Below are positions 47,471 to 64,000 of a DNA stretch of 64,000 nucleotides, piece after piece. A program made the translations under genes and the position numbers. The notes beneath the pieces are model-generated. The model made no database searches, was not told the DNA's origin, and was given only the letters and a program-made list of their open reading frames with translations. Source of the stretch: Acidobacteriota bacterium (GTDB taxonomy: Bacteria > Acidobacteriota > Thermoanaerobaculia > UBA5066); the NCBI GenBank assembly GCA_029781975.1, contig JAKOVQ010000033.1:124001-188000 (forward strand), read 5' to 3'. Numbering within the stretch: position 1 is the stretch's first letter; every line of letters begins with the position of its first letter.

Positions 47471-48478
47471 TCACGCCGGAGCCGGCCGGTCGGCTCCGCC
47501 CGGCGTGGCCGGGTCCGCCGCACCCGGCCGGAAGACGAAGAGCGACTGATCCGCGGGAAGGGCGAGGAGCAGGATCCGCGCGACCACGAGGGCCGCCGCG
47601 AGAAGGCAGCTCGCCGGGCTCACGGGGCGGTCCATGTGCAGGCGCTGCCAGAGGCCGCGCAGCGTCAGGGTCGCGAGACTCCGCGACGTCACGAACGCGA
47701 AGCCGGACCCGGCCGCAAGGCGGCGGAGCGTCGTCTCGTCGAAGTACGAGACGTGCGGGCTCGGGTAGCCCGCCTGCCACAGCCTCTCCCACGGTCCCGT
47801 CCACCCGGCGAGGCGGAGGAGCGAGGCGGCCCGGAAGAGCGTGCCGTCCGCGTCGGGTACGGAGACGGCCAGGAGGCCTCCGGGTCGGAGGCGTTCGCGG
47901 CAGGCAGCCAGCGCCGACCCGACGTCGACGATGTGCTCGAGGACGTCGTTGAAGCAGATGACGTCGTAGGTCGCGCCCTCGGGAAGCGCCTCCGGAAAGT
48001 ACCCGACCGTAACGGTCCGGCCGGACTCGACGGCCCGCGCCGCCACTCCCGGATCGGGCTCGATCCCTTCGGCCTCGGCGCCCCTTCGCGCGGCCGCGTC
48101 GACGAACCACCCGTGCCCGCTCCCGACGTCGAGGATCCGCAGACCGCGGATCCCGCGAATCCCCGCGATCGCGTCCAGGACCGTCTCGTTGTTCCTTTCG
48201 CGAAGGGGCTTCAGCCCGGCCGCCCGCCTCCCCTCGTCGAGGCAGCCCTGATCCAGGAGCCGCCCGTCCCGCGATCCCAGGCTCGAGCGCCAGAGGCCGC
48301 ACGAGCCGCAGCGGAGGGTCCACTCCGGACGGGACCCCTTCAGGGCGTCTTCACCGCAGGCCGGGCACCGGTCCCCCGCCGCAGCCGGTCCGACGGCCCT
48401 TCCGCTCCGCCCGGTCGCCGAGCGGCCGACCGACGCGGGCGCGCCCGGCTCCGCCGGTGGACCGTGTCGGGAGATCAT
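47471..48478 (-). CDS. zinc-ribbon class I methyltransferase
   Basis: The protein has 335 residues from the ATG at 48476-48478, which follows GGGAGGAGGGG. A short disordered start leads to a zinc ribbon (RCPACGE, then RCGSCGLWRSS), then a Methyltransf_11/23-type domain (~105-270): LRILDVGSGHGWFVDAAARR (motif I), AEGIEPDPGVAARAVE, YDVICFNDVLEHIVDVGSAL and RLRPGGLLAVSVPDADG, followed by SPHVSYFDETTLRRLA. The C-terminus has a hydrophobic stretch (ASCLLAAALVVARILLLALP) that may touch the membrane. Related enzymes methylate glycan or lipid-linked sugars. It is divergent from the methyltransferase gene at 48754. Confidence 0.85.
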   Translation of the reverse strand: MISRHGPPAEPGAPASVGRSATGRSGRAVGPAAAGDRCPACGEDALKGSRPEWTLRCGSCGLWRSSLGSRDGRLLDQGCLDEGRRAAGLKPLRERNNETVLDAIAGIRGIRGLRILDVGSGHGWFVDAAARRGAEAEGIEPDPGVAARAVESGRTVTVGYFPEALPEGATYDVICFNDVLEHIVDVGSALAACRERLRPGGLLAVSVPDADGTLFRAASLLRLAGWTGPWERLWQAGYPSPHVSYFDETTLRRLAAGSGFAFVTSRSLATLTLRGLWQRLHMDRPVSPASCLLAAALVVARILLLALPADQSLFVFRPGAADPATPGGADRPAPA

Positions 48479-48629
48479 TCCCCTCCTCCCATCGCCCCGG
48501 GGTCGCCGGAGCCGCCGCGTCTCCATCCTTCGAGCAGGATATCGAGGGCCGTTCCGGACCCGGTCCCTCTCCTCGCTCCGCACCGGGGGCGCTTCACGAG
48601 GACCGACTCCGGGAGCCGGGGCCGACCAC

Positions 48630-48637
48630 AGTATATT
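48630..48637. promoter_or_regulatory. overlapping -10-like elements between divergent methyltransferase genes
   Basis: AGTATATT contains TATATT on plus (48632-48637) and TATACT on minus (48635-48630). It is the only AT-rich spot in the 275-nt gap 48479-48753 and could drive both genes. On plus, transcription would begin near 48644, exactly at an ATG that opens a 37-codon frame. Confidence 0.35.
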
Positions 48638-48643
48638 GTCGGC

Positions 48644-48757
48644 ATGAAGCCGTCGCCCTCTTCGTCGAGGCGCTCTCCCGGCTCGATGGCTGGAGGTCGA
48701 CGCGCAACCGGTCGCCGGGATCGCGCTTTCCGGCACCCCGTCCGGGTGAGGGTTTGA
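48644..48757 (+). CDS. possible 37-residue leader peptide
   Basis: This small frame starts with ATG 7 nt after a TATATT element and stops with a TGA overlapping the TTG start of the next gene by 4 nt (TTGA). The product is basic and Ser/Arg-rich (MKPSPSSSRRSPGSMAGGRR and on). It resembles no family. The overlap matches the stop/start coupling used throughout the locus, but in DNA this GC-rich a short frame can also arise by chance. Confidence 0.25.
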   Translation: MKPSPSSSRRSPGSMAGGRRATGRRDRAFRHPVRVRV

Positions 48758-49431
48758 CGGATCCGGCTCGGGACGGCTGGGAGGCTCACTGGAGCGTCCT
48801 CTCGGGGCCGGGAAGCCTCTTCGGAAGGATCGCGTCAACGGTGCGGCGGCTCGTGATCAGCCGGGCCGTGGCGGGCTACGCCGAGCGGTTCTTCTCTCCC
48901 GACGGAGTCCACGTGGAGATGGGGTGCGGCACGGCGGAGTCGTCCCGGAGGATCGCGCCCGCGCGTCGCCTCCTCGTCGGGCTCGACTTCTCCTCGGGGG
49001 CGCTGCGCGCCGCCCGAAGAGCCGCGAACCTCGGCGGCCACGTGCAGGCCGACATCGGGCGCCTCCCCTTTCGCGACGCCTCGCTGGGAGGGATCTGGAA
49101 CCTGGGCGTCATGGAGCACTTCGAGGAGGAGAAGGGCCTCGGGATCCTCCGCGAGTTCGCGCGGGTCCTCCGTCCGGGCGCCTGTGCGGTCCTCTTCTGG
49201 CCGCCCGAGTTCGGGTCGTCCCGGCTCGTCCTCGCCCCGATCGAGGCCGTGCGCTCCGTCCTGACCCGGCGTCGCTTCCGCTTCTTCCCGGACGAGGTGA
49301 ACCGGCTCCGCTCGCCCTCGCATGCGCGCCGCGTCCTCCGCGCGGCCGGGCTCGAGGCGGCCGCGATCGAGTTCTCGGTCCGGGACGCCTTCATCCACCT
49401 CGTCGTCGTCGGCCGCAAGCCCGCCTCGTGA
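48754..49431 (+). CDS. class I SAM-dependent methyltransferase
   Basis: The protein has 225 residues from the TTG at 48754-48756. Core motifs: VHVEMGCGTAESSRRIAPAR (motif I), LLVGLDFSSGALRAARRAAN, VQADIGRLPFRDASLGGIWN, LGVMEHFEEEKGLGILREFA and RVLRPGACAVLFWPPEFGSS. I chose the TTG because it keeps the N-terminal DGWEAHWSVLSG; no other in-frame start sits close upstream, and the next candidate (GTG ~48841) would remove it. Its stop overlaps the GTG of the DPM1-like gene (GTGA), so it probably methylates something in the same lipid-linked sugar pathway. The substrate is unknown. Confidence 0.8.
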   Translation: MTDPARDGWEAHWSVLSGPGSLFGRIASTVRRLVISRAVAGYAERFFSPDGVHVEMGCGTAESSRRIAPARRLLVGLDFSSGALRAARRAANLGGHVQADIGRLPFRDASLGGIWNLGVMEHFEEEKGLGILREFARVLRPGACAVLFWPPEFGSSRLVLAPIEAVRSVLTRRRFRFFPDEVNRLRSPSHARRVLRAAGLEAAAIEFSVRDAFIHLVVVGRKPAS

Positions 49432-51704
49432 AGCTCTCCGTCGTCATCGCGGCGTACAACGAGCGCGAGAACGTCCTGCCTCTGACGCGACGGCTGGTCG
49501 ACACGCTTCGGGCGATGCCCTCCGTCTCGTGGGAGCTGGTCTTCGTCGTCGAGGGGACCGACGGGACCCGCGAGGCCCTGGAGACCTTCCGCGGCGAGGT
49601 CCCGTCGCTCCGGGTCCTCTGGGCCCGGGAGCCGGCGGGACTGGGCGCGGCGTTCCGGAAGGGGTTCGCCGCGGTCTCGGCGGATTCCGACCTCGTCGTG
49701 ACCATGGACGCGGACCTCAACCACCAGCCCGAGGAGATTCCGCGCCTCGTCGAGGCCTCGATCCGGACGGGGGCGGACGTCCTCATCGGCTCGCGCTTCG
49801 TCCCGGGCGGGCGGATCGAGGGGACGCCGGCCTGGAAGCGTCTGCTCAGCGGGAGCATGAACGTGGCGATGCGCTTCCTCTGGGGACTCCCGGTCCGGGA
49901 CAAGACGTCCGGCTACCGCGTCTACCGGGCCTCGGCCCTCAGGACCCTCCAGCATCGCCTCGACGACTTCGCGTTCCTCCCGGAGCTCCTCATCCAGGCC
50001 CACCGGCAGGGCCTTCGCCTCGCCGAGGAGCCGATCCTCTTCCGGTACCGCGTGCACGGCGTCTCGAAGATGGGGATCCTGAAGACCAGCCGCAGCTACC
50101 TGTCGCTGCTCCGGTCGCGGGTCGACCGCTGGACCCTGGCCGCCCTTCTCTTCCTCGCGAGCGGCGCCGCGGTCCGCCTCGTGTCGACCTTTCCGGTCCG
50201 CCGCTGGCCCACCGAGCCCGACGCCCTCCTCCCGGGCATGACCGCGGTCAAGATCCTCTCGGGAGACGTCCGCGTCTTCTCCTCCGGCGTGAGGATCGGC
50301 GCCCTCGAGAGCTACGCCCACGCCCTGGTCTTCGCCGTCGCGGGCCCGACGAGAGCCGCCTCGGGGGTCGTGCCGCTCGTCGCGGGGGTTCTCTCGACCG
50401 TGGTCTTCTTCGCCCTCGCCCGGGCGCTGATCGGGCGATCGGCGGCGTGCGTGGCGCTGGCCGTCTTCGCGATCCCGCCTCCCGCGTTCCTCTACTGGAC
50501 GTACCAGCCGAACGGCTATCCCCTCGCGGTCCTCCTCTGGCTGACGGTCCTGCTGGTGGCCGAGCGGCTGGCGCGGGGACCCTCCCGCGGACCCCTCCTC
50601 GTGCTCGCCTTCGGCCTGGTCTCCGGCCTGGCCTGGTGGACGACGCTCCAGTCGGTGGCGGTCCTCCTCCCCGCGACCCTCTGGATCGCCCTCCACAGGC
50701 CACGGGCCCTCCTCACGGGGAGGAGGCTGTCCCTCGCGGCCCTCGGGTTCGCGCTCGGCGCGTCGCCGTGGATCGGCTACAACGTCCGGTACCCCCTCGC
50801 GACCTTCCACGCGAACTTCGCCGTCCGGCCCGTGGGAACCAGCGAGGGGATCGTCGCGAACGCGGCGTTCCTCGTGCGCGACAGCCTCCCCGAGCTCTTC
50901 GTCTCGCTCGATCCCGAGCAGGGGCCCAACCCTGCCGGACCGCTGCGCCGGGCCCTGCGGCTCCCGGTGGCGGCCGTCTGGGCCGCGGGAACGGCATACG
51001 CCTTCGTTCGCGTGGCGCGCGCGCTGTCCGCCCGCGTCCGCGGAGCCCGGAGCCCGCTCCCTGGCGAGCTGCTCCTGCTGCTCGTGGCGGCGGTCATGCT
51101 CGCCGTGACGGCTCTCTCGGAGGCCGGCTCCTACAGGAATCCCAACGTCCGTTACATCCTCCCCTGCTTCTTCCTCGGTGCCGCCGGCGTCGGCGTGCTG
51201 CTGTCGTCGCCGTCCCGGAGGGCCGGCGCCGCTTTCGCCGGTGCGGCGCTGCTGGCCGTCGTCGCGTTCGACCTGGCCGGGGTCCCGTGGCCCGGGTCCC
51301 CGCTGCGGCAGAGGCTGGCCCGGGACGCACGCGACGAGGGCCGGCTCCTCGCGCTCCTCCGGGAGAGGAGGATCGACGCCGTCTACGGCGACTACTGGTG
51401 GGTCTACGGCCTCAACTTCGTGGCTGGCGGCTCTCCGGCGGGGATCCCGGACCGCGAGGACCTGGACTACTACCGCTACGCGGGCGCGCTCCCCGACCGT
51501 CCCGTCCGTTGGGCCCTCCTCACCCTCCGTCCCGAGGAGATCGCCGCGTGGCAGGTCGCGTTCGGCGGGTCCGGCGAGGTCCTCGAGGCAGGGTCGAGGT
51601 ACCGCCTGTTCCTCCCGGCCCCCTCGACGATCCCGCCGGTCCCGGCGCAGGCGCAGGCGGAGTGGATTCGCACGACCGCTTCCGCCGCCCGTCCGCCCCC
51701 CTGA
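49428..51704 (+). CDS. DPM1-like GT2 fused to polytopic membrane domain
   Basis: The protein has 758 residues. Residues 1-225 form a polyprenol-phosphate glycosyltransferase of the DPM1 type: LSVVIAAYNERENVLPLTRR, LVVTMDADLNHQPEEIPRLV (DAD metal site), GADVLIGSRFVPGGRIEGTP, LPVRDKTSGYRVYRASAL and FRYRVHGVSKMGILKTS. Residues ~235-650 hold about 10 membrane segments arranged like a GT-C enzyme or its membrane anchor, and the C-terminus is a soluble tail (RIDAVYGDYWWVYGLNFVAG). The first half would charge a polyprenyl phosphate with a sugar; the membrane half may transfer it or simply hold the enzyme at the membrane. The GTG at 49428-49430 overlaps the methyltransferase stop by 4 nt. It is followed after 143 nt by a secreted protein gene. 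Confidence 0.88.
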   Translation: MKLSVVIAAYNERENVLPLTRRLVDTLRAMPSVSWELVFVVEGTDGTREALETFRGEVPSLRVLWAREPAGLGAAFRKGFAAVSADSDLVVTMDADLNHQPEEIPRLVEASIRTGADVLIGSRFVPGGRIEGTPAWKRLLSGSMNVAMRFLWGLPVRDKTSGYRVYRASALRTLQHRLDDFAFLPELLIQAHRQGLRLAEEPILFRYRVHGVSKMGILKTSRSYLSLLRSRVDRWTLAALLFLASGAAVRLVSTFPVRRWPTEPDALLPGMTAVKILSGDVRVFSSGVRIGALESYAHALVFAVAGPTRAASGVVPLVAGVLSTVVFFALARALIGRSAACVALAVFAIPPPAFLYWTYQPNGYPLAVLLWLTVLLVAERLARGPSRGPLLVLAFGLVSGLAWWTTLQSVAVLLPATLWIALHRPRALLTGRRLSLAALGFALGASPWIGYNVRYPLATFHANFAVRPVGTSEGIVANAAFLVRDSLPELFVSLDPEQGPNPAGPLRRALRLPVAAVWAAGTAYAFVRVARALSARVRGARSPLPGELLLLLVAAVMLAVTALSEAGSYRNPNVRYILPCFFLGAAGVGVLLSSPSRRAGAAFAGAALLAVVAFDLAGVPWPGSPLRQRLARDARDEGRLLALLRERRIDAVYGDYWWVYGLNFVAGGSPAGIPDREDLDYYRYAGALPDRPVRWALLTLRPEEIAAWQVAFGGSGEVLEAGSRYRLFLPAPSTIPPVPAQAQAEWIRTTASAARPPP

Positions 51705-51847
51705 GGGACCAGCGGGGGCCGGGCGAGGCGGCGGCCAGGTTGCGGCCGGGCCGCGGATGCGCCGAGAATGAGAGGTCTCCGACGCAGCCGGCGCCGTCCC
51801 TCCACCTCGGGGTGACCGGTCGGCCTCGGCGCCGGCAGGAGGGCATC

Positions 51848-53773
51848 ATGGGCCGACCGGCAGCTCCCCCCACAGCCCAGAGGCGGCTCCTGCCGGTCCT
51901 CTGCGTCCTCATCGCTCTCCTCGGCTTCGACCGCGCGTCCGCCGCCGCGCCGTGCGTCCCCGGGGGCCAGCCCTGTCCGCCCCCTGGCGGCTTCCGGGCC
52001 GGCTTCGGCCCGCTGACCCTCGCGGGCGGTGGCACCTCTCGCGGGGGACACCCCGTCGTCGCGGACCTCGGCCTGACGCCGGGGCACAAGTCGATCGTCT
52101 TCGGGACGTCGAACGGCCGTCTCTACGTGGTGAAGCACGACGCCACGGTGGCAGCGGGCTTCCCCGTCACGCTGCCCCGCGAGATCGTCTCGAGCCCGGC
52201 GGTCGGGACGCTGACGAAGCAGGACGGAACCACGGTCACGGCGATCGTCGTCGGCTACGGGTCGAACTTCCCCGGCCAGGTCGACGCCGGCGGGATCCGC
52301 GCGTACCTCCCGAACGGCACGCTCCTCTGGGAGAGGACGTCGGGACCGTACGTCGGCGCGACGGCCCCCGTCGTCTCGGCGCCCGCGATCGGCGACGTCG
52401 ACGGCGACGGGAAGAACGAGGTCGTCTGGACCTCCTTCGACGAGTTCGTTCACGTCTCGGACGGGGCCACGGGTGCCGAGAAGCAGGGGTGGCCCTACCG
52501 GACGTACGACACGATCTGGTCCTCTCCGGCCCTCGCGGACCTCGACGGGAACGGCAAGCTGTCGGTGATCGTCGGGTCCGACCAGCACTTCCAGGCGGCG
52601 CCGATCGCGACGCCGAACGGAGGCGGGCTCCACGTCATCGACTCCACCGGGACCCCTCGCCCCGGGTTCCCCGTCTACATCGACCAGGTGATCTCCGGGG
52701 CCCCTGCCGTCGGCGACATCAACGGAGACGGGGTGCCCGAGATCGTCTTCGGGACCGGCGGGTTCTGGGCGGGCGCCGCTCACCGGGTCTACGCGTACCG
52801 CTGCGACGGCACGCCGGTCGCCGGGTGGCCGGTGACGGTCCAGGGCCAGGTCGTCACCTCGCCGGCGCTCGCCGACCTGACCGCGGACGGGACACCGGAG
52901 GTCGTCGTCACGGACGACGCCTCGAGCCCCGACGGCCTGAGACGCCTCTACGCCTTCCGCGGGAACGGCTCGTCGCTCTTCACGCCCGTCGTCATCCGCG
53001 ACTTCTTCGGCGCGAACCTGAGCGCGGGGGACCCGATGGTGGCGGACGTCCTCGGCGATTCCGCCCCCGAGCTCCTGGTCCCGACCAACGGTGAGATCTG
53101 CGTCGTCTCCAGCGCCGGGGTCCAGCTCACGGACAACGGGAGCCACGCTGCGGGGACGTTCTCGTTCATGGTCACGAGCTCGCTCTCGAACGCGACGGTG
53201 GCCGACCTCGACTCGGACGGAGCGGCGATCGAGGTCATTGCCGTCACCGGCATCGGGACGTCTCCCGACATCGGAGTCTGGGTCTGGAACCCGAAGGCCC
53301 CGACGCTCCCCGTTCCGTGGGGGCTCTTCCACCAGAACGCCGCCCGGACCGGCGTCGTCCCGGGCACCCCGCCGTGCGCGGCGGCCGTCGGGCTGAAGTT
53401 CCACACGCTCCCGCCCTGCCGGCTCATCGACACGCGAGGCGTGACGCCGGGCGCCATCGGGGGCCCCCCGCTGACGGCGAACGAGGTCCGGACCTACTCT
53501 CTCGGAGGTCGCTGCGGCATCCCGTCCACCGCGAAGGCCCTCGCCGTCAACGCCGCCGTGGTCAACCCCGGGGCCAGCGGGTTCATCACGATCTTCCCCG
53601 GAAACCAGTCGGCCACGCCGGTCGCCTCCGTGCTCGCCTTCGGCCCCGGCGTCACCCGCGCGTGCAACTCGGTCGTCCGCCTTGCGACCGACGCGTCGGT
53701 TCGCATCTCGGTCGCGAACGTGGCCCCCGCGGGGACCGATTTCCTGCTGGACGTGAGCGGCTACTTCCAGTGA
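51848..53773 (+). CDS. secreted VCBS/FG-GAP propeller protein with C-terminal PCR-DTR module
   Basis: The protein has 641 residues. A signal peptide covers ~12-33 (RRLLPVLCVLIALLGFDRAS). Residues ~45-515 contain about eight FG-GAP/VCBS blades with calcium-binding loops: APAIGDVDGDGKNEVVW, SPALADLDGNGKLSVIVGSD, APAVGDINGDGVPEIVFGTG, SPALADLTADGTPEVVVTDD. Residues ~517-641 form a separate module starting FHTLPPCRLIDTRG, with GGRCGIPSTAKALAVNAAV and ending LLDVSGYFQ. Three other proteins downstream end in the same kind of module. The ATG follows AGGAGGGCATC, a good ribosome binding site. Probably an extracellular or surface binding protein; the ligand is unknown. It converges on the next gene with a 9-nt gap. 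Confidence 0.88.
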   Translation: MGRPAAPPTAQRRLLPVLCVLIALLGFDRASAAAPCVPGGQPCPPPGGFRAGFGPLTLAGGGTSRGGHPVVADLGLTPGHKSIVFGTSNGRLYVVKHDATVAAGFPVTLPREIVSSPAVGTLTKQDGTTVTAIVVGYGSNFPGQVDAGGIRAYLPNGTLLWERTSGPYVGATAPVVSAPAIGDVDGDGKNEVVWTSFDEFVHVSDGATGAEKQGWPYRTYDTIWSSPALADLDGNGKLSVIVGSDQHFQAAPIATPNGGGLHVIDSTGTPRPGFPVYIDQVISGAPAVGDINGDGVPEIVFGTGGFWAGAAHRVYAYRCDGTPVAGWPVTVQGQVVTSPALADLTADGTPEVVVTDDASSPDGLRRLYAFRGNGSSLFTPVVIRDFFGANLSAGDPMVADVLGDSAPELLVPTNGEICVVSSAGVQLTDNGSHAAGTFSFMVTSSLSNATVADLDSDGAAIEVIAVTGIGTSPDIGVWVWNPKAPTLPVPWGLFHQNAARTGVVPGTPPCAAAVGLKFHTLPPCRLIDTRGVTPGAIGGPPLTANEVRTYSLGGRCGIPSTAKALAVNAAVVNPGASGFITIFPGNQSATPVASVLAFGPGVTRACNSVVRLATDASVRISVANVAPAGTDFLLDVSGYFQ

Positions 53774-53782
53774 GGGGCGACG

Positions 53783-55825
53783 TCACTCGACGAACGCGAC
53801 CTCGTAGAGCTGGACGGTGAGCTCACGGTCGTCGGTCGCCCCCGGGAGGACGTCCCGGGGCTTCCAGGTCGGGCTTCCGTCGAGGTAGACCAGGACCTCC
53901 CGGTTCGCCAGCCGCGACGCGAGCGGCGGAGGGATCGGAAGCACGTAGTCGGTCACGCCGTCCGAGACGATCCTCAGGCGGCCGATCTCTTCCCTCCCTC
54001 CGGCCGCCCGATCCGCGAGGCTCACGGAGACGTCCACCCCTGGAAGGCCGGGGCGCCACCGACGGAGGGCCGACACGGGGACGGCCAGCCTCAGGCGGAG
54101 CCGGTCTGACGAGGCGACGAGCCCGAGCGTCGCATGGCTTCCCATCCAGCGGCAGACCCCTTCCCACCCGTAGAGCCCTCCCACGACCGCCCAGTCCTCC
54201 GGGCCCAGGCCGAAGCGGACCGCGCCGCCGTGACGGACGTCGCGAAGGACGCCTCCGACGACCCGGAACGTCGGCGCCGGCTCGCCGATCTCCCGCTCCC
54301 ACCGCTCGAGGACACCGTTGACGAGGGCCTCGTCGCGTCCACCCACCGTCGGGCCGCCGAGCCGGACCCGCGGCGAGCGGGGACGGGTCGCGACGAAGAG
54401 GAGGAAGCGGGTGGACAAGCGGCCGTTGTGGACGTCGGAGAAGAAGAGGTTGCCGTCGGGGACCTCGATCGGCGGCGCGCCCGTCGGGAGGCGCTCCGCG
54501 GCCTCGCCGAGGAGCGCACCGAGCCGCGCGAGCTGCCCGAACCGCCTCTCGTGCCGGGCGTAGACCTCCGCCGGAGCCCGGCGCCTGACGGCCACGGCGT
54601 GGATCGGGACCTCCGCGGCCACGGTCGCGAGCGCGAGGACCGCCAGCGCCCGCCTCCGTCCTCCCGGCAGGTTGCGGGCCGCGTCGATCGCGCTCGCGAC
54701 GAATGCGGCCGTCAGGAGCGAGAGGGGGATGAGGAGCGGGAAGAAGTAGCGGTCCGCGTCGAACATCTCCTCCGACGAGTTGCTGGAGCGGCCGAGGGCG
54801 ACGAGCGCGACGAAGCCGAGGGGCCCGGCGGCCGACGCGAGGGCTGCGAGCGAGAGGGGCCGGGCCCGCGGGGCGAGGACCGCGGTGACGAGGGCCGCCC
54901 CTCCCAGCCAGACGACGAGGCCGAAGGCGCCCGCCAGGCCTGGAGAGCCGGCCGGATCGCCGAGCAGACGGGGAAGGTGCTGCGCCGGGAAGACGAGCCG
55001 GAAGGGCGCGACGACGAGGAGGAAGGCGGCGCGCGTGGCGGCGCGCCCGAGGTCGAGGTGAATGCTGGCCCCGGTGAGCCGCCCGTAGGCCCAGGAGGTC
55101 GCCGCCGCCGCGGCTCCCACCGCCACGAGCAGGGAGACCGAGAACGTCCCTGGAAGGAACCCCTTCCGCGTCCCCTCGTGTCGCGTCTCCCACTCGTCGA
55201 GGAGCGCGGGGCAGGCGGCGAGAGGGAGGAGGGCGTTCTCGAAGAGGACCGCAATCGCCACCCCCACCGAGGCGACCGCCAGGGCCCGCCTCCGCCCGAG
55301 GACCCCTTGTCGCGCCACCGCCAGCATCGCGCCGGTGATCGCGGCGATGCCGAGCGGAACGCAGCCGCCGCTCGGGAACCAGATCCACATCGAGGAGAAG
55401 CCCGCCGGGAGGACGTAGGCGAGCGCCGCCGTCGCCGGCGCGGTCCTGCCCGGCAGGTACCTCGAGGCGACCCCCGCGAGGAAGAGCGCCGACGCGACGT
55501 GCGAGAGGAGGACGAGCAGCCGAAGGGGGAACGCGTCCGGCCCGAACAGTTGGGCGTTCGCGGCGATCAGGAGCCTGAGGGCCGGCAGGAAGTGCTCGCC
55601 CTGGGGACGGAAGAGGATCGTCGCGAGCGGGACCCTCCCCGAGAGGTGATCCGCCGCGGCGTTGAGGTAGTCGATGTCGTCGTACGCGAAGGACATCCGC
55701 AGGGTGGGCCCGTAGAGGGCGACGGCCGCCGCCCCGGTCACGACGGCGAGGACGAGGAAGAACCGGCGCGCCGACCTCCGGCTCGCCTCGCCTTCCGTCG
55801 CCTCGCGGCTCCTCACCGTCGCCAT
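53783..55825 (-). CDS. polytopic GT-C-like membrane protein with C-terminal beta domain
   Basis: The protein has 680 residues from the ATG at 55823-55825, preceded by GAGAGGAGACGCG. It begins with a polar N-terminus and a hydrophobic segment, then GPTLRMSFAYDDIDYLNAAA: an acidic pair in the first outer loop, as in GT-C transferases that use polyprenyl-phosphate sugars. About 10-11 membrane segments extend to residue ~430. The remainder is soluble: PIEVPDGNLFFSDVHNGRLS, then a beta domain with LYGWEGVCRWMGSHATLGLV and REVLVYLDGSPTWKPRDVL. This kind of appended domain is common on surface-glycan membrane proteins but its role is unknown. It may transfer a sugar on the outer face of the membrane. 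It stands 105 nt after the next membrane gene upstream. Confidence 0.75.
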   Translation of the reverse strand: MATVRSREATEGEASRRSARRFFLVLAVVTGAAAVALYGPTLRMSFAYDDIDYLNAAADHLSGRVPLATILFRPQGEHFLPALRLLIAANAQLFGPDAFPLRLLVLLSHVASALFLAGVASRYLPGRTAPATAALAYVLPAGFSSMWIWFPSGGCVPLGIAAITGAMLAVARQGVLGRRRALAVASVGVAIAVLFENALLPLAACPALLDEWETRHEGTRKGFLPGTFSVSLLVAVGAAAAATSWAYGRLTGASIHLDLGRAATRAAFLLVVAPFRLVFPAQHLPRLLGDPAGSPGLAGAFGLVVWLGGAALVTAVLAPRARPLSLAALASAAGPLGFVALVALGRSSNSSEEMFDADRYFFPLLIPLSLLTAAFVASAIDAARNLPGGRRRALAVLALATVAAEVPIHAVAVRRRAPAEVYARHERRFGQLARLGALLGEAAERLPTGAPPIEVPDGNLFFSDVHNGRLSTRFLLFVATRPRSPRVRLGGPTVGGRDEALVNGVLERWEREIGEPAPTFRVVGGVLRDVRHGGAVRFGLGPEDWAVVGGLYGWEGVCRWMGSHATLGLVASSDRLRLRLAVPVSALRRWRPGLPGVDVSVSLADRAAGGREEIGRLRIVSDGVTDYVLPIPPPLASRLANREVLVYLDGSPTWKPRDVLPGATDDRELTVQLYEVAFVE

Positions 55826-55930
55826 CGCGTCTCCTCTCGTCCGTGCCCGGTCGCCTTCGTGGGCGTCGCCGCCCGCCTTGCGTCGAATCGCCCGTCGAGG
55901 ACGCATTCCCGGGCGGTGAAAGCAGGCACT

Positions 55931-57820
55931 CTAGCGAACCTCGATCGCCACCGGGTAGTCGACGCCCCCGAGGTCCCGGAACCAGTCGACCCCTTCGTGG
56001 ACGAGCCCGACCTGCAGGACGTACCTTCCCGGACCCGGCGGGGGGACCAGCGGGACGACGACCCGCGCCGCGGCGCCCGGGGGCAGCTCGCGGCCGGGAT
56101 ATCCCCGCGCCGCCATCTCCACGCCCCTGCCGGTCTCGCCGTCCCGGACCCAGTGCGCACCGAGGTGGACCGCATTCGTCCACGTCCACGCGCTCGCGTT
56201 GCGGTAGGTCGCCTCGAGGCGGCCGGGGCTCGAGCGATCCACGACGTCGGGCACCCGGACCCGCTCCCAGTCGACGCGGTAGGCGGACGGCGGCATGGGG
56301 AGGGAGAGCGCCCGCGAGAGGACGGCCACCGTCTCCGACGGGAGCTCCCGGTAGATCGAGTAGCCCGAGGCGTCGACCCGGCTCGCGGAGCACCCCGTCT
56401 CCCTCAGGTACGCGTCGAAGGAGCTCGCGAGGTCGGCCGGCAGGACGAGCGCGGGGTGGACCGCCGCCTGGACCGCCGCCTGGTAGGGCGGGTACCGGAG
56501 CATCTGGTCCGACGCGAGAGGCGTGGCCACGACCCGCTCGCGGCTCTCGAACGAGATCCGGTACGCCGCCCAGTAAGTCGTCCAGACGTGCCGGACCCCG
56601 GCGTGATCGAGCGCCGCGAGGAGGTCTCCCAGCGGAGCGACGCACCGCCCTCGGCTCGGCGCGAGAGAGCCGCAGCGAGGGGCCGCCGCGAGGCTCGAGA
56701 CGTCGAGGATCAGGACGGCGGCGCCGGCGCCGACGGCGACGGCGCGCAGCCCCGGTCGCGACCAGAGCTCGTGGAGGAGCGCTCCGAGGAGCGGTGCCAC
56801 GGTGACGTACAGCGCGACCAGGAACCGCGGTTCGCGGGGATCCAGGCGCGCGGGAAGCGCCGCCGCCGCCACCAGCGCGAGGGAGACCAGCGAGAACAGC
56901 GCCACGCCCGGGTCGCGGCGGAGGAGCCGGCTCACGCCAAAAACGGCGAGGACGGCGCCGAATGCGCCCCCGATCACCACGGCAGCCGCGCCCGCCACCC
57001 GATGGGGCGCCGTCGCGCCGACCAGGATGGGGAGCGATTCGCGGACCAGGGCGACGAGGTTCACCAGGTAACGGTCAACCGAGACCGTGGACAGCTCGGG
57101 CGCCTTCAGGCTCGCCCAGCCGTGACGAGCGTTCCAGAACCACCAGGGGAAGCTCCCCGCGGCGAACCCCGCCCCCGCCGCGAGGAGGGGAACAGGACGA
57201 CGGCCGGGGCCCGATGCGAGAAGGACCCAGAGGACCACGGCCAGGAACGCGGGAGGCGTCACCGGGCTCACCCAGAGCCCGAAGCCCCCGGCGAACCCGA
57301 GCAGGCCGAGAGAGACGACACGCGAACGCCCCGCAACCGCCCGCTCTCGATCCCACAGGGCCACCAGGAGGAGAGCCGCCGTGACGAGACACGCCGAGGC
57401 GTAATGCCCGTCCGAGGTCAGCACCTTGTAGGGGAAGAAGAACGGCGGACAGCAGAGGTACAGGGCTGCGAGGAGCGCGGGGACCGCGCTGAACGCCTTC
57501 CGGGTGGCCGTGGCCACGATCCCGACGGTCGCGGCGGAGAAGAGCACGAGCAGGCCCCTCAGCGCCGCGAACGAAGAGCCGAAGATCGCAAAGACGACGG
57601 CGAGGAGGTGCGCCTCGAACGTCCCCCCGTAGGTCGCCCCGTAGTAGAAGACGGGGTGGCCCTTCCCCTGGAGGATGTGTCGCGCCATCAACCCCACGAT
57701 CGCCTGGTCGGCGCTCGGAGGGATCCTGTCCGCGACGACGAGGAAGCCCGCCGAGAGAGCGAAGGCGGCCGCGATCAGGACGAGAGCGGCGCCGACGAGG
57801 CGATCGCTCTCCCGCCTCAA
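55931..57820 (-). CDS. GT-C-like membrane protein with C-terminal NBR1-like domain
   Basis: The protein has 629 residues. About 10 membrane segments follow an N-terminus with DRIPPSADQAIVGLMARHIL and HPVFYYGATYGGTFEAHLLA, an arrangement seen in PMT/ArnT-like GT-C proteins. After residue ~390 it is soluble: LLAALDHAGVRHVWTTYWAA and RVVATPLASDQMLRYPPYQA, then at ~530-629 an Ig/NBR1-like domain (GRLEATYRNASAWTWTNAVH, LGAHWVRDGETGRGV, YVLQVGLVHEGVDWFRDLGG). That last domain matches the lipoprotein at 42681-43190 in layout. The start is TTG at 57818-57820, 19 nt after the stop of the small secreted protein gene, with GAGGG just upstream. The reaction is unknown; transfer of a lipid-linked sugar is the best guess. 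Confidence 0.75.
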   Translation of the reverse strand: MRRESDRLVGAALVLIAAAFALSAGFLVVADRIPPSADQAIVGLMARHILQGKGHPVFYYGATYGGTFEAHLLAVVFAIFGSSFAALRGLLVLFSAATVGIVATATRKAFSAVPALLAALYLCCPPFFFPYKVLTSDGHYASACLVTAALLLVALWDRERAVAGRSRVVSLGLLGFAGGFGLWVSPVTPPAFLAVVLWVLLASGPGRRPVPLLAAGAGFAAGSFPWWFWNARHGWASLKAPELSTVSVDRYLVNLVALVRESLPILVGATAPHRVAGAAAVVIGGAFGAVLAVFGVSRLLRRDPGVALFSLVSLALVAAAALPARLDPREPRFLVALYVTVAPLLGALLHELWSRPGLRAVAVGAGAAVLILDVSSLAAAPRCGSLAPSRGRCVAPLGDLLAALDHAGVRHVWTTYWAAYRISFESRERVVATPLASDQMLRYPPYQAAVQAAVHPALVLPADLASSFDAYLRETGCSASRVDASGYSIYRELPSETVAVLSRALSLPMPPSAYRVDWERVRVPDVVDRSSPGRLEATYRNASAWTWTNAVHLGAHWVRDGETGRGVEMAARGYPGRELPPGAAARVVVPLVPPPGPGRYVLQVGLVHEGVDWFRDLGGVDYPVAIEVR

Positions 57821-57839
57821 CGGCCCTCGGAGGCGCGGG

Positions 57840-58370
57840 TCACTGGAAGTAGCCGGTGACGTCGATCAGGAGGTGGTAGGTGAACGTGTTCGGGCACTGA
57901 AAGACGCCGCCGATCACGCCGCAGCCGGCCCCGAGGACCTGGAAGTCCGGGTCGGTCCCCGGGGACGCGACGGTCCCGAGCGGGACGATCGCGCCGTTCG
58001 CGATGGTCTCGTTCTGGTAGTAGTTCGAGGTCGAGACGTTGGGAAAAGTCCCCGGGTAGGGCGCAATCCTCAGGTCGCCACCCGGCGCGTTCGGAGTGAC
58101 GATCGTGAGGTTGAGGGAGAGCGCGGTCGCGGTGGTCGGGATGCCGCAGAGGCCCCGCAGCCGGAAGGTCCGGATCGTCGCCGAGTTGATGATCCCGCCG
58201 CCCGTGCCTCCCGCCGAAGGTTGACCGGTGCGCGTGTCGTAGACGCGGCACGGGGTGACGGCGAAATACTGGTACGGCCCCGTCTGCGCGACCGCTTCCG
58301 CGGGGACCAGCACCGCCAGCAAGAGTCCGCCCACCAGGACACCGGCGTTCCGCTTCAGGCTCTCGAACAT
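57840..58370 (-). CDS. small secreted protein made of one PCR-DTR module
   Basis: The protein has 176 residues from the ATG at 58368-58370, which has AAAAGGAG 6 nt upstream; an in-frame ATG at 58391 lacks this. A signal peptide covers residues ~1-30 (GVLVGGLLLAVLVPAEAVAQ). The rest is one module: YFAVTPCRVYDTRTG, FRLRGLCGIPTTATALSLNL, and ending LLIDVTGYFQ. Compared with the other three copies in the window it carries an extra ~20-residue insertion with two more cysteines (VLGAGCGVIGGVFQCPNTFT). It shows that the module can be exported alone. The function is unknown. Confidence 0.8.
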   Translation of the reverse strand: MFESLKRNAGVLVGGLLLAVLVPAEAVAQTGPYQYFAVTPCRVYDTRTGQPSAGGTGGGIINSATIRTFRLRGLCGIPTTATALSLNLTIVTPNAPGGDLRIAPYPGTFPNVSTSNYYQNETIANGAIVPLGTVASPGTDPDFQVLGAGCGVIGGVFQCPNTFTYHLLIDVTGYFQ

Positions 58371-58400
58371 GGCAGGCTCCTTTTCAGGCAAAGGGAATTC

Positions 58401-59822
58401 TCATTTGAAGTAGCCGGCGACGTCAATCAGGACGTCCGCGGCCCCTGCCGAAGACTCGTTCCGGAGCGCGATCGTCCCCGACCCGGACGAGCTCAGCATG
58501 ATCACGGCGTTGTTGGCGCGGGTCCGCCCGGCCCTGAAGCTCAGGAGAGTCGCGTCGGACGGTGAACCGTCCCCCGGAAACCCTTTGAGGGCTCCGGGGC
58601 CGGGGGCGTTGACCGATGTGACGTTCAGGGCCACCGCCTTCGCGTCGGCAGGGACACCGCAGATCCCCGCGACCGCCACGACCCTCTCGGTCGAGGCGAG
58701 GAGGGCGGGTCCTCCCCTGGGACCCGGAGGGTCACGGGTGTCGAGGAGCCGGCACGGCGTCAGCGGCTGGAAGGACCCCGGCCCGGACACGCCCGCCACC
58801 GCGGGCTTCCACCCCAGCTGGATCACCTCGAAGTCCGAGGCGTGGAGGCTGGCGAACGCCGGGTTCAGGACGCCGTTGTCCCACCGTGTGTCGTAGGTCC
58901 CCTGGATGTACATGTCCGACCCGTTGTCCGCCAGGATCAGGCCGTAGGTCTTCATCGCCTGGAAGATCTTCCGGACCGGGGCGGCGAAGCCGGAGATGTC
59001 CACCGCCTGCTTCAGCCGGAGCCTGAGGCCGAGCGGGGGGCGAGCGGAGCCCGAGCCGGACGGGGCGTTGTGCGAGGCGGGGAAAACGTAGCCGTTCGAC
59101 GTCTGGAGGGTGAACCGGAGCGCGTGGCGGATCGGGTCGGTGCCGAAGGCCTCGTCGTACCGGACGAGCCCGGGGAGGATGGCCAGGCCGGCCGCGTCGG
59201 CGCTCGTCCAGCCGTCGGGCCTCCTCTGGATCGAGTCGAGGGGGAAGACCGCCCCCGAGCCGGCCTGCCACGAGCACGAGGGGGAGGTCGCCGGCCGGCA
59301 GCGTGTGTTCCAGGTCTCGAACAGGAGCCGGTGGTCCACGTCGACGATCAGCATGTGCTTGTCGCCGCCGACGTTCGCGTTCCCCGGATATCCCCCTTCG
59401 ATCCACTTCGACTGCGTCTTCGCGGCGGCCGGAATCGGGTAGCCGGCCGGGCGGCCGGGCGCCCCGACGTCGCTCTCGTCCACGTAGTCGAAGGCCACCG
59501 GCTCGAGGGCCTCCGCCGCCGCCCCCGACACGGTCACGTAGACCATCCCGTAGATCTCCGGCGACGGGCTCGAGTCCCCTCCGAAGTCGGGGTGGAGCGC
59601 GGCGTTGCGGGAGAAGAAGTCGAAGCGCGTCCCGTTCGGCTCGAGGGGGGCCGAGGAGACGTCGACGTTCCACCAGCTGTCGGGGGGGAAGAGAGGAAGA
59701 GGGCCGGGCAGGCTTCCGCCACGCGTGGCCTGGGCGGCCGCCGGCGGGGCCAGCGCGAGCGCCGCCGCGAGGAGGAGACCCCGCGGCACCGCTCCGCTAC
59801 GGGGTCGGGACGTAATACCCAT
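58401..59822 (-). CDS. secreted protein: conserved SWWN domain plus PCR-DTR module
   Basis: The protein has 473 residues. A signal peptide lies at ~14-31 (GLLLAAALALAPPAAAQA). The N-terminal domain (~35-345) belongs to a family I know only as hypothetical: LPLFPPDSWWNVDVSSAPLE, LHPDFGG, SKWIEGGYPGNANVGGDKHM, WQAGSGAVFPLDSIQRRPDG, WTSADAAGLAILPGLVRYDE, HALRFTLQTSNGYVFPASHN, LGLRLRLKQAVDISGF and LILADNGSDMYIQG. The many invariant-looking His, Asp, Trp and Gly residues hint at an enzyme. The module at ~349-473 starts FQPLTPCRLLDTRD and ends LIDVAGYFK. The ATG at 59820-59822 lies inside the 3' end of the protease gene (26-nt overlap); a GTG at 59787-59789 would avoid the overlap and still keep the signal peptide core. 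Confidence 0.8.
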   Translation of the reverse strand: MGITSRPRSGAVPRGLLLAAALALAPPAAAQATRGGSLPGPLPLFPPDSWWNVDVSSAPLEPNGTRFDFFSRNAALHPDFGGDSSPSPEIYGMVYVTVSGAAAEALEPVAFDYVDESDVGAPGRPAGYPIPAAAKTQSKWIEGGYPGNANVGGDKHMLIVDVDHRLLFETWNTRCRPATSPSCSWQAGSGAVFPLDSIQRRPDGWTSADAAGLAILPGLVRYDEAFGTDPIRHALRFTLQTSNGYVFPASHNAPSGSGSARPPLGLRLRLKQAVDISGFAAPVRKIFQAMKTYGLILADNGSDMYIQGTYDTRWDNGVLNPAFASLHASDFEVIQLGWKPAVAGVSGPGSFQPLTPCRLLDTRDPPGPRGGPALLASTERVVAVAGICGVPADAKAVALNVTSVNAPGPGALKGFPGDGSPSDATLLSFRAGRTRANNAVIMLSSSGSGTIALRNESSAGAADVLIDVAGYFK

Positions 59823-62238
59823 TCACGTCCAGGATGAAGTGGACCGAGGCGGCCGCGCCGTTGAAGACGTTGAACGTCTGGGTCCCGTTGGTCGACAGGA
59901 GGAGGTGCGCGTTGTTCGCGATGGTCCTCCCGGCCGGGAACGAATTGGCGCTCGGCCGGGGACTGGGGAGAAGGCCGTTGCCCGGGAAGAGGACCAGCTC
60001 TCCGGCGGCACCGGGCTGGGTGACGGTGACGTTGACCGACAGCGCCGTCGCGTTCGCCGGGACCGAGCAACGGCCGGGGACGGAGAAGAGCCTCGTCGCC
60101 CCCGCGACGAGGGCCGGCGAGGCGGCGTCCGACCCGGTCGTGTTGCGCGTGTCGAAGAGCCGGCACGGGGGCAGGGTGTAGAAGCGCGACGCCGATGGGA
60201 CGGGGGTGTAGAAGAACGCGTTGGTCAGGGTCGCCGGAGAGAGGCCCGACACGGTGACGACGACGTCGACGAGCTGCGAGGTCGCGTGGGGCGGCGTCAC
60301 CGCCGTGATCGTCGTCGCGTTGACGACGACGACCGAGGTCGCGCTCGCCCCTCCGATCGAGACGGTCGTGGGAGCGGCGAAGCCGGAGCCGGTGATCGTC
60401 ACGGCCGTCCCTCCCGTGAGGCGCCCGGTGTTCGGGGAGATCGCGGAGACGCTCGCGCCGGCGCCGTAGCTGAACCCGCCGGCCTTCGTCGCGGTCTGGA
60501 AGTCGGGGTTCATCACGACGACGTCGACGGCGCCCGCGTTCGTGGCCGAGGGCGTGGTCGCCGTGAGCTGCGTCGAGCCGTTGAAGACGACGCTCGCGGC
60601 AGCCTTCGCGTTCACCGACGCCCCGAAGACGTCGTTCGACGGCAGGTCGACGAAGGCGACGGCCGCGCCGTTGACGAAGTTGGTCCCGGTGATGGTCACC
60701 GACGTCCCGCCGGCGAGGCCCCCCGAGGAGGGCGAGACCGTCGAGATCGTCGGGGCGGCCGGGACGACGCCGCCGCTCAGGGTGGCGAGGCAGGAGGCGG
60801 TCGCCACCTCGGTCAGGACCGAGTCGATGCCGAACGGGTCGGCGGGGTTGTCGGTGATCGATCGCGAGTGGAAGACGAGGTTGCGGGGCGTGCAACCGAT
60901 CATGTGGCAGTAGCTCATCAGCGTCCCGTTCGTCTGGACGCCGTTGAAGGTGAGGGTTCCCGGGCAGCCGAGCGCCGACCCGCAGGAGGGACCGCCGTTG
61001 GTCTCCGGGGTGAGGCACGAGTCGATCGGCGGCGTTCCGTAGTAGCAGTTATGCGTGTGGAAGTCGCCGAAGTTGTGCCCCACCTCGTGGGCCAGGATCC
61101 CGAGGTCCGCCGTGACGCCGAAGGCCCCCGTGAAGAGCTGGTCGACGCTGTACCCCGAGCCGGAGCAGAGGGCCGCGATCCAGCCGATCCCCGAGGCCGA
61201 GTTGCTGCTCCCCTGCTTCCCGGAGAGGAGCGCCGCCACCGCGCGCCGGACCACCGTCCGCGGGTAGTTCGTCTCCCAGTAGCTGGTGAACTCGTTCAGC
61301 TTCGCGGTGTCGGCGGTTCCCATGGTGTCGGCGTACGGGTCGCTCGGTTCCCCCACGCGGAGGATCGTGTAGCCCTGCAGGACCTTGACCCCGTTCCCGC
61401 TCCCGGAGCCGACGTCGCGTTCGTAGATGACGGACATGCCCGCGACGAGCGAGGCGATGTAGTTCGTGGCATCGGTGGTGTTGTTCCCGAATCGGAGGTT
61501 GAGATACTCGGCATCGGTGTCGAACGCGATCACGGCCGACTTCGTCAGGGTACCGAGCGCCCCGACCGTCTGGCTCGGCCTCTCGTCCGACACCCGCTCC
61601 TTCGCGACGCCCCGCCTCCCCCGCTCCAGGAAGGCGAGGTCGCTTTCGTCCACGGAGCAGCGCCACTCCGGGACCATGCCGTCCACCCGGAAGGCGGCCA
61701 CCGGGGCGAGGCGCGAACGAATCCCCGACCCGCGCTCAGGCGGCTCGAGCGCGAGCGTGCCCTCCGGCCCCGTCGTCAGGCCGCCCACCGAGAGCGTGTC
61801 CGGATCGACCCAGACGGTCAGGGACGCTCCCTGCCGGCCTCCGCCGACGACCGCGCCTCGATAGAAAGCCAGCCGCGAGCAGGGGGCGTCACGCTCGACA
61901 CCGTTCTCGATCACGACGATCCGGGCGTCCGGCGCGTAGACGTCGAACCGGCGCAGGAGGACCGGTGCGCGAACCCCCGGCGCGATCGGCCACGAGTCGG
62001 CCTGGATCGACTCCTCCGGCGCGAGCGCGAGGAGCGACGCGACCGTCAGGTCGTCGAACGCGACGAGCTCCATCGGGGAACGGCCGTCCGGGGCGTCGAC
62101 GATCGGGCCGAGCGGGACTTCGGGAAGCCGATCGAGGCGGTCGGCCGGCGGGGACGCCTGGACGGAAGCGGGACACAGGACGAGGACGGCCGCAACCCAG
62201 AGGGCGGCCGCGCACCTCGCGATTCTCTCTCGAGCCAT
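59797..62238 (-). CDS. secreted M12B-type zinc metalloprotease with IPT/TIG and PCR-DTR domains
   Basis: The protein has 813 residues. A signal peptide is at ~8-28 (CAAALWVAAVLVLCPASVQA), with a propeptide-like region to ~235. The catalytic domain (~240-490) opens SAVIAFDTDAEYLNLRFGNN and carries the zinc motif HEVGHNFGDFH (residues 384-394, codons from 61089 down) and the metzincin Met-turn LMSYCH, as in reprolysin/ADAM-like peptidases. Several cysteines (NCYYGTPPIDSCLTPETNGG) suggest disulfides. Two IPT/TIG domains follow (~500-680: SGGLAGGTSVTITGTNF and TGRLTGGTAVTITGSGF), then the C-terminal module (~683-813: LPPCRLFDTRN to LDVNGYY). Probably an exported peptidase. The ATG is preceded by GGGGAGGGGACC. 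It is the first gene of a minus-strand run of secreted and membrane proteins. Confidence 0.9.
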   Translation of the reverse strand: MARERIARCAAALWVAAVLVLCPASVQASPPADRLDRLPEVPLGPIVDAPDGRSPMELVAFDDLTVASLLALAPEESIQADSWPIAPGVRAPVLLRRFDVYAPDARIVVIENGVERDAPCSRLAFYRGAVVGGGRQGASLTVWVDPDTLSVGGLTTGPEGTLALEPPERGSGIRSRLAPVAAFRVDGMVPEWRCSVDESDLAFLERGRRGVAKERVSDERPSQTVGALGTLTKSAVIAFDTDAEYLNLRFGNNTTDATNYIASLVAGMSVIYERDVGSGSGNGVKVLQGYTILRVGEPSDPYADTMGTADTAKLNEFTSYWETNYPRTVVRRAVAALLSGKQGSSNSASGIGWIAALCSGSGYSVDQLFTGAFGVTADLGILAHEVGHNFGDFHTHNCYYGTPPIDSCLTPETNGGPSCGSALGCPGTLTFNGVQTNGTLMSYCHMIGCTPRNLVFHSRSITDNPADPFGIDSVLTEVATASCLATLSGGVVPAAPTISTVSPSSGGLAGGTSVTITGTNFVNGAAVAFVDLPSNDVFGASVNAKAAASVVFNGSTQLTATTPSATNAGAVDVVVMNPDFQTATKAGGFSYGAGASVSAISPNTGRLTGGTAVTITGSGFAAPTTVSIGGASATSVVVVNATTITAVTPPHATSQLVDVVVTVSGLSPATLTNAFFYTPVPSASRFYTLPPCRLFDTRNTTGSDAASPALVAGATRLFSVPGRCSVPANATALSVNVTVTQPGAAGELVLFPGNGLLPSPRPSANSFPAGRTIANNAHLLLSTNGTQTFNVFNGAAASVHFILDVNGYYVPTP

Positions 62239-62468: not shown

Positions 62469-64000
62469 GTGACCACACTGAGCAATCGCGCCCGACCCCG
62501 GGCGCTGCGGGCGGAAGCAGCCGGCGCACGCGTGCGCCGGCTGCTGGGTTTCGCCTTCGTGGCGGTCGCCATCGTCGCGCGGGGGCCACGCGCCCTGGCC
62601 CAGTCGCTCACCGTCTACGACGACGCCCTCCGGAACGGGTTCTCCGACTGGTCGTGGGCAACCCACTCCCTGAACCAGACTCTGGTCATCCACGGCGGCA
62701 CCGCCGCGATGTCGTTCGAACCCGACGTATGGGCCGGCCTCTTCCTCCACCGGGACGCGGGCTTCTCGGTCGCCGACTACGAGTCGATCGAGCTCTGGGT
62801 CCGCGGGGCGAGCCCCGGCGGGCAGCAGGTCACGGTCGCGGTGACGAGCGGCGGGAGCCCGGCGGGGTCGGCCGCGTTCGCGGCCTTCGTCGCGGGCGGG
62901 TCGATCCCGGCGGGGAGCTGGGCGAAGGCGACGGTGCCGTTCTCGGCGCTCGGCCTGACGTCGGGGACGTACGACGGCTTCTGGCTCCAGGACGCCACCG
63001 GGGGCGACCAGCCGACCCTCTACGTCGACGACGTCCGTCTCGTCGCCCGGACGTCTCCCCCTCCACCGCCGCCGGTCGGCGGGGCCGTGACGATCTCTGT
63101 GGACCCCTCCCTCGACCGCCGCGCCGTCAGCCCGCAGATCTTCGGCGTGAACTTCGGGTCGACCGCCCAGGCGAACCGCCTCCACTGGCCCGTCCGCCGC
63201 TGGGGCGGGAACGCGACGACCCGCTACTCGTGGCAGAACGACACGTCGAACAAGGGGTCGGACTGGTTCTTCATGAACGTCCCGGAGGACAACCCGGACC
63301 CCGGGTCGCTCCCGAACGGCTCGGCCGCCGACCGGTTCCTCGCCGAGACCCGCGGGGCGGGGGGGGAGCCGATCCTGACGGTCCCCCTCATCGGCTTCAC
63401 GCCGCTCGACCGGTCGAAGAGGTGGGGCTTCTCCGTGTCGAAGTACGGCCCGCAGACGGCCACCGAGTGCACGGCCACGGGCAACGCCTCCTGGTGCCAG
63501 CCCGACGCGGGGAACGGCGAGAGGGCGGGGGGCGGTTTGGTGACCGGGAACGACCCGGCAGACACCTCCGTGGCGATCGGGCCGTCGTTCGTCACGGCCT
63601 GGATGGACCACCTCGCGCAGCAGTTCGGGACGGCAGGGAACGGAGGCATCCGCTCCTTCGCCCTCGACAACGAGCCGGCCCTCTGGAACTCGACCCACCG
63701 CGACGTCCACCCGCAGCCGCTCACGTACGACGAGCTCTGGCAGAAGAGCCGTGACATGGCCGCCGCGATGAAGGCCAAGGACCCTGCGGCGCGGATCTTC
63801 GGCCCCGTCTCGTGGGGATGGTGCGAGTACTTCTACTCCGCGGCGGACGGCTGCTCGGCGTCCGGGTCCGACTACGTCGCCCACGGGCAGGTCCCGCTGA
63901 CCCAGTGGTACCTGCGGCAGGTCGCGCAGTACCAGCAGGCGCACGGCGTCCGGCTGGTCGACGTCCTCGACGTCCACTACTACCCGCAGGCGAACGGCGT
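62469..64000 (+). CDS. glycoside hydrolase family 44 enzyme (3' end outside window)
   Basis: The frame stays open to the window end (510 codons seen). From the GTG at 62469 the protein has a signal peptide (LLGFAFVAVAIVARGPRALA), an N-terminal carbohydrate-binding-like domain (~46-196, LTVYDDALRNGFSDWSWATH to LYVDDVRLV), a Pro linker, and a GH44-like catalytic domain from ~205: ISVDPSLDRRAVSPQIFGVN, RRWGGNATTRYSWQND, DWFFMNVPE, and FALDNEPALWNSTHRDVHP, where Glu402 (codon 63672-63674) is the expected acid/base. GH44 enzymes cut beta-1,4-glucans such as xyloglucan and cellulose. The nucleophile Glu would lie past the window edge. A GTG at 62532 gives a more typical signal peptide (RRLLGFAFV) and is an alternative start. 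No clear ribosome binding site is visible for either. Confidence 0.88.
   Translation, partial: MTTLSNRARPRALRAEAAGARVRRLLGFAFVAVAIVARGPRALAQSLTVYDDALRNGFSDWSWATHSLNQTLVIHGGTAAMSFEPDVWAGLFLHRDAGFSVADYESIELWVRGASPGGQQVTVAVTSGGSPAGSAAFAAFVAGGSIPAGSWAKATVPFSALGLTSGTYDGFWLQDATGGDQPTLYVDDVRLVARTSPPPPPPVGGAVTISVDPSLDRRAVSPQIFGVNFGSTAQANRLHWPVRRWGGNATTRYSWQNDTSNKGSDWFFMNVPEDNPDPGSLPNGSAADRFLAETRGAGGEPILTVPLIGFTPLDRSKRWGFSVSKYGPQTATECTATGNASWCQPDAGNGERAGGGLVTGNDPADTSVAIGPSFVTAWMDHLAQQFGTAGNGGIRSFALDNEPALWNSTHRDVHPQPLTYDELWQKSRDMAAAMKAKDPAARIFGPVSWGWCEYFYSAADGCSASGSDYVAHGQVPLTQWYLRQVAQYQQAHGVRLVDVLDVHYYPQANG
62516..62545. repeat. perfect 30-bp palindrome at the 5' end of the GH44 gene
   Basis: Each 15-nt arm reads AGCAGCCGGCGCACG on its own strand, and there is no spacer. 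It lies 47 nt into the gene if the GTG at 62469 is the start, or overlaps the alternative GTG at 62532. No U-tract follows on either strand, so it is not a typical terminator. Confidence 0.85.

Follow-up and report, generated by a model that had tools for sequence, protein, structure and literature searches.

Introduction

Several described systems come close. Exoproteins with SLH or CWB2 modules have three of them in tandem, CWB2 at either end of the protein, and these modules bind wall polymers; the SLH triplet is a pseudo-trimer, and loss of any single CWB2 repeat abolishes anchoring (PMC4973711). The tip of Bd2133, a fibre of Bdellovibrio, is a previously uncharacterised β-sandwich that forms a trimer and has ions along its three-fold axis; MAT fibres of this type are thought to point adhesive tips at prey, and glycan binding has been shown for Bd2439, another fibre in the family of Bd2133 (PMC10769870).

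Here we describe a module of ~125 residues that is shared by the C-termini of four proteins in a 64 kb window (the whole stretch of DNA that was analysed, C6:124001-188000 of a 5.37 Mb genome in 54 contigs). We think it reasonably likely that the module is a trimer-forming head which attaches exported cargo to a surface, the working unit being a three-fold assembly.

The module in the window

The first-pass annotation had proposed that four proteins end in a common module, and all four copies were found where it had placed them, each followed by 0-4 residues (Table 1). BLASTP among the excised modules gave 32-44% identity over the full length with E values of 1e-14 to 1e-31, which excludes chance and makes the similarity one of homology; that the module is a family with homologous members is close to certain. 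There are 23 alignment columns that are invariant across the four copies, including P7 C8 R9, D12 T13 R14, G38, C40, P43 and N52 and, at the C-terminal end, D119 V120 x G122 Y123; the cysteines in PCR and GxC[GS]xP and the terminal DVxGY, described in the first pass as shared, are among them.

Each of the four proteins begins with a signal-peptide-like stretch. The first had been called a VCBS propeller; it is a propeller, although the Pfam name is FG-GAP. The standalone protein plausibly starts at the ATG at 58370, which has AAGGAG just 5' of it. The SWWN-type gene and the protease gene overlap by 26 nt, and the NCBIfam choice-of-anchor Z repeat matches the protease (2.9e-12). The secreted SWWN-type domain ahead of the module is nameless in Pfam and NCBIfam. 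A fifth copy lies beyond the window end (C6:188659-189024) on the protein that starts at 62469, for which the putative GH44/EpsB assignment draws on the sequence and on a protein set including this locus (L012), in which each name was matched by two of 35 proteins. The whole genome contains seven copies, all C-terminal, five of them inside 12 kb.

Table 1. Genes that carry or adjoin the module, and the module copies, in the window.
Feature	Position	Strand	Remarks
Secreted FG-GAP β-propeller protein, module at end	51848..53773	+	Pfam FG-GAP_3 1.4e-18; signal-peptide-like N-terminus
Multi-spanning GT-C (PMT_2-like) glycosyltransferase	55931..57820	-	PMT_2 1.6e-5, just under cut-off
Standalone module protein (signal peptide and one module, no cargo)	57840..58370	-	ATG at 58370
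Secreted SWWN-type protein, annotation without function, module at end	58401..59822	-	No significant Pfam/NCBIfam match
Secreted M12B-like metalloprotease, two TIG domains, module at end	59797..62238	-	Pfam Reprolysin_5 1.4e-12, TIG 4e-23
GH44 (EpsB-like) glycoside hydrolase, runs past window end	62469..64000	+	Putative assignment
Module copy 1	53396..53770	+	Last 125 residues of propeller protein; HMM E 8e-57
Module copy 2	57843..58271	-	Longer form, insertion precedes DVTGYF; HMM E 1e-52
Module copy 3	58404..58775	-	End of SWWN-type protein; AlphaFold2 pLDDT 95, pTM 0.87
Module copy 4	59800..60186	-	End of M12B-like protease; HMM E 5e-58

Distribution and cargo

No Pfam or NCBIfam model matched the module above cut-off in the individually scanned proteins (from the window, from relatives with an N-terminal module and from relatives with three copies), and only scattered sub-threshold matches fall inside it. 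A literature search, by motif strings as well, found no paper describing the domain. The profile search that had been proposed in the first pass did find homologues, some of them with the module at the N-terminus or in tandem. In a search of a contig collection the nearest named relatives were Acidobacteriota MAGs (ACB1, Holophagales UBA5704 and Thermoanaerobaculia). Within the same family and order the module occurs in 18 of 61 relatives, patchily and expanded, with 0 to 51 copies per genome; a shallower look at the phylum at large found it to be rarer (10 of 297 genomes). Part of one actinobacterial class also has it commonly (18 of 100 genomes), one Ilumatobacteraceae MAG having 110 matches, and tblastn with a window module found plasmid genes of Streptomyces, Curtobacterium, Arthrobacter and Aeromicrobium. 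By the tblastn and actinobacterial genome matches, the actinobacterial LLDTR...DVxGYF domains to which the first pass had pointed belong to the same family. The module family is thus present both in diderm Acidobacteriota and in monoderm Actinobacteria.

The cargo varies widely and is of an extracellular type. Scans of 35 cargo proteins, which inform on the cargo and not on the module, gave NHL, SBBP and FG-GAP propellers, GH44, S8 proteases, PhoX, β-helix and Vps10 domains; a DUF1800 protein, RCC1 propellers and a cutinase were also found. A choice-of-anchor domain stands ahead of the module in the window protease, in L215 and in a few of 35 relatives. The name choice-of-anchor denotes domains that occur together with a variety of anchors; it is suggestive here and does not amount to a test. 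RHS/YD-repeat proteins of L056 and of the plasmids NZ_CP094490 and NZ_CP094491 hold a module, which in the L056 protein is internal, ahead of the core end. In another acidobacterial group (L123-L129; genomes G111 and G233) a conserved C-terminal domain of ~90 residues (VTRVAG...GGACPAGTQLIGGE) follows the module.

Copy number

Complete open reading frames (n = 277, a sample of the strongest matches rather than a census) carry one module in 168 cases, three in 106, two in 3 and four or more in none. Among the two-copy cases, L290 has a diverged middle copy that is still recognisable; the two genuine two-copy proteins are both in L303 (genome G383), less than 15 kb apart, and no others were found. 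One reading frame cut by a locus edge has five modules, which we read as two triplets. The repeat period in multi-copy proteins has a median of 127 residues, with linkers of 5-13 residues, and the Streptomyces and Curtobacterium plasmid proteins are triple in 6/6 cases.

The Terriglobales copies are positional paralogues, with higher identity at the same position across proteins (64%) than within a protein (48%), which suggests a single old triplication as judged from the sequences. The pattern is reversed in the actinobacterial genome G331 (58% within the protein, 42% between proteins, with single proteins reaching 92-95%). The three copies are monophyletic in 26 of the 114 triples placed in a tree, 19 of them with support ≥0.9; this, together with the near-identity in G331, indicates that triplication recurs and halts at three. 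Gene conversion could also make the copies within a protein alike, but it would not fix their number at three.

Predicted fold and trimeric stalks

AlphaFold2, given 44 aligned modules from the window and its relatives, predicted copy 3 as a β-sandwich of eight strands with the scores listed in Table 1. The best PDB match of this model in Foldseek was the Bd2133 fibre tip (E = 7e-5, probability 1.00), and VIA-align superposed the two with a Z-score of 10.6 and an r.m.s.d. of 2.8 Å over 108 residues, the next unrelated row having a Z-score of 8.4. Sequence searches of solved structures, with 4 and with 44 sequences, turned up no relative, the matches to UbiX, flagellin and S-layer proteins being due to chance; the 44-sequence profile reported neither 8ok3 nor 8ond among PDB chains at E values of up to 10. 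Phage tail-fibre proteins were among the top matches in viral predicted structures; in phage records, neither the triple nor a collagen-type module had a relative by sequence.

A natural triple (L064), predicted from eight aligned sequences, had a pLDDT of 79 and a pTM of 0.82, which is beyond the normal range for three independently floating domains; by its pTM alone, the model implies that the triple folds as one body in a fixed arrangement. Its first module matches the Bd2133 tip with a Z-score of 10.2, and 211 residues spread over the triple weakly match an engineered single-chain APRIL-BAFF trimer of the TNF type (Z = 6.3). No triple of the module family came up among solved structures when the triple model was searched with Foldseek.

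Both the collagen helix and the S74 fibre are trimeric. Of 24 proteins with a single module on the N-terminal side, 12 have a collagen-like stretch or a fibre ending in S74 after the module, compared with 0 of 21 with a triple there (Fisher p = 1e-4, in a test framed after the first examples had been seen and with counts that take in contig-cut reading frames). The stalks were called by Pfam in L113 and L115 (Peptidase_S74) and in L176 (collagen), and by pattern in the others. Single modules are therefore joined to trimeric partners, and triples lack them. The fold match to the tip, the occurrence of one or three copies, the stalks and the pTM of the triple are indirect signs, which taken together make a three-fold assembly very probable.

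The standalone version and its neighbours

In the tree, ten of the 14 standalone proteins fall in one clade of 12 with a support of 0.93, and the one-module protein of the window is a member of this clade of small secreted proteins. A second module gene lies alongside on the same strand at 9 of the 10 loci of this clade that were examined, and propeller genes similar to that of the window adjoin the standalone gene in L138 and L025. The GT-C glycosyltransferase gene is directly downstream of the standalone gene in the window, and a PMT_2-type homologue directly follows the standalone gene in L147 (2e-77) and L171 (9e-97), making three genomes. A link of this glycosyltransferase to the module is uncertain, and a general link between module genes and PMT_2 glycosyltransferases was dropped, a similar gene being present at 4 of 101 relatives' loci. 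In the window (48457-57820) module genes stand amid a methyltransferase, a GT2 protein that is continuous with a PMT_2-like region, and a pair of multi-spanning proteins of the PMT_2-like kind, a gene set that resembles a glycan-building locus; the whole genome has 28 PMT_2 matches.

The main rival to the surface-attaching head is a pure trimerisation domain, which would bring three cargo enzymes together to gain avidity or stability and would have no ligand of its own. The fold match to the Bd2133 tip and the trimeric stalks fit such a domain equally well. However, over 100 proteins have three copies in one chain, at least 19 of them through triplications that look recent, an arrangement that preserves the head with no need for oligomers of the cargo; and the standalone clade has no cargo to cluster. 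Since triples retain the head without needing oligomers of the cargo, selection appears to act on the head itself, and we judge pure trimerisation to be unlikely.

Position in the protein

Of the 274 complete proteins that carry one or three copies, 232 have the module or triplet at the C-terminus, with at most 10 residues after it; in 29 it lies on the N-terminal side, a short way after the signal peptide, and the remaining 13 have it elsewhere. The 106 complete triples include 87 that are C-terminal and 15 that are on the N-terminal side, and a triple necessarily has two of its three DVxGY motifs, the first and the second, at internal positions. The terminal position is thus a habit rather than a rule and either end serves; the constant C-terminal placement put forward in the first pass holds for the window genome and fails in general.

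These positions bear on the possibility that the module is a C-terminal signal for sorting or secretion which a dedicated exporter recognises, as with the T9SS C-terminal domain and PEP-CTERM. The prevalence of the extreme C-terminal position, the unrelated cargo and the adjoining choice-of-anchor domains would all suit such a signal. Against this, the module can lie on the N-terminal side, tandem copies make DVxGY internal, and no transmembrane or processing motif follows the module. The occurrence of the family in diderms and in Actinobacteria also means that an outer-membrane exporter is not a universal partner, which disfavours a sorting tag; we consider it improbable. The T9SS sorting-domain model was not among the NCBIfam matches shown, and SprA was not found in the 61 relatives in a search whose control was equally silent. 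Secretins are present in the genome of the window and do not discriminate between the readings; no S74 protein of its own was detectable in that genome. The first-pass annotation had offered surface attachment, glycan binding and sorting as roles for the tag, and the first two survive as the best guess.

Ordinary carbohydrate-binding modules, strung as independent beads and numbering three by common ancestry, would agree with the weaker structural matches, which include CBM36, CBM35 and CBM6 (Z-scores of about 7-8), and with the glycan-active nature of some cargos. Matches between β-sandwiches at a Z-score of about 8 or below are non-specific. Bead modules normally vary in number, whereas here two and at least four copies are nearly absent; triplication has been repeated, collagen and S74 stalks accompany singles and never triples, and the pTM of the triple model implies a fixed arrangement. 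This arrangement as beads we hold to be, if anything, slightly less probable than a sorting signal.

Cysteine pairs

Among 546 modules, the PCR and GxCGxP cysteines are both present in 255, one is present in 41 and neither in 230. Another pair, formed by the cysteines of YPCG and xVCxY, is complete in 147 of the 546 and represented by one cysteine alone in three; the two pairs practically never occur together in one module, and from the sequences we infer that they are alternative disulfides. In L067 and other triples of G308 the first cysteine of the PCR motif has gone and a new cysteine is found in the next loop (CTPG), possibly keeping the pair. The existence of two sites for a cysteine pair that exclude each other hints at selection for stability, as for an end cap that neither binds a ligand nor oligomerises, but such a cap leaves the occurrence of one or three copies, the trimeric stalks and the standalone clade unexplained and is very improbable.

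A proposed three-fold surface head

The reading that we favour, a trimer-forming surface head, can be set out as follows. The module would be a β-sandwich head at one end of exported proteins, mostly the C-terminus. Three chains would build the head in single-copy proteins, and one chain would supply the whole of it in three-copy proteins, so that the assembled three-fold head rather than the lone module would be the working unit. The head would fix its cargo (hydrolases, proteases and propellers) to a surface in the manner of SLH and CWB2. Given a three-fold assembly, attachment to a surface or glycan is fairly probable, with less support than trimerisation itself. The surface bound would most likely be a glycan belonging to the envelope or matrix of the cell itself, and we are about evenly divided between the cell's own envelope and an external substrate as the target.

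Some genomes of Acidobacteriota and Actinobacteria contain dozens to more than 100 copies of this module on proteins of an exported type, and it is nameless in Pfam and NCBIfam. If the reading is correct, the head would give a location and an assembly rule for many uncharacterised exoproteins of soil bacteria and would connect the exoenzymes of bacteria with the fold at the tip of a predator's fibres. Given the rule of one or three copies, a single small protein is enough for a direct test of the oligomeric state.

Comparison with known systems

Like the T9SS C-terminal domain, PEP-CTERM and MYXO-CTERM, the module is terminal, changes cargo and occurs many times per genome; unlike these tags, it has N-terminal and tandem forms, and none of their models is among the NCBIfam matches shown. 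C1q/TNF-type heads and S74 tips are trimeric β-rich heads on collagen or β-helix stalks, and some single modules are fused to such stalks, although the module lies on the N-terminal side of the stalk and belongs to another sequence family.

The Bd2133 tip (PDB entries 8ok3 and 8ond) is a β-sandwich of similar length at a protein terminus and the published tip is trimeric; the identity to the module is only 12% and a profile search gives no link. Bd2133 has one copy per chain on the β-helix fibre of a predator, and its description (PMC10769870) is without secreted-enzyme or tandem-triple forms. MAT tips stand at the end of a long trimeric β-helix, whereas the cargo in the window consists of a propeller, a protease and domains without a name; only L113 and L115 among the relatives are S74 fibres, and their module is at the opposite end to the MAT layout.

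CWB2 (PF04122) and SLH (PF00395) resemble the module triples in being three tandem copies at one end of unrelated exoproteins. The single-copy members of the window type do not have three copies within one chain, there is no sequence relation (PF00395 and PF04122 were absent from the Pfam matches of those single- and triple-copy proteins that were scanned one by one), singles are as common as triples and diderms also have the module. It is with slightly less than even confidence that we propose an undescribed class of three-fold surface-attachment heads, found in diderms and monoderms, which would switch between a homotrimer and a covalent pseudo-trimer and have a standalone version beside the cargo genes. 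If this is true, the head would be another case of three-part anchoring beside SLH and CWB2.
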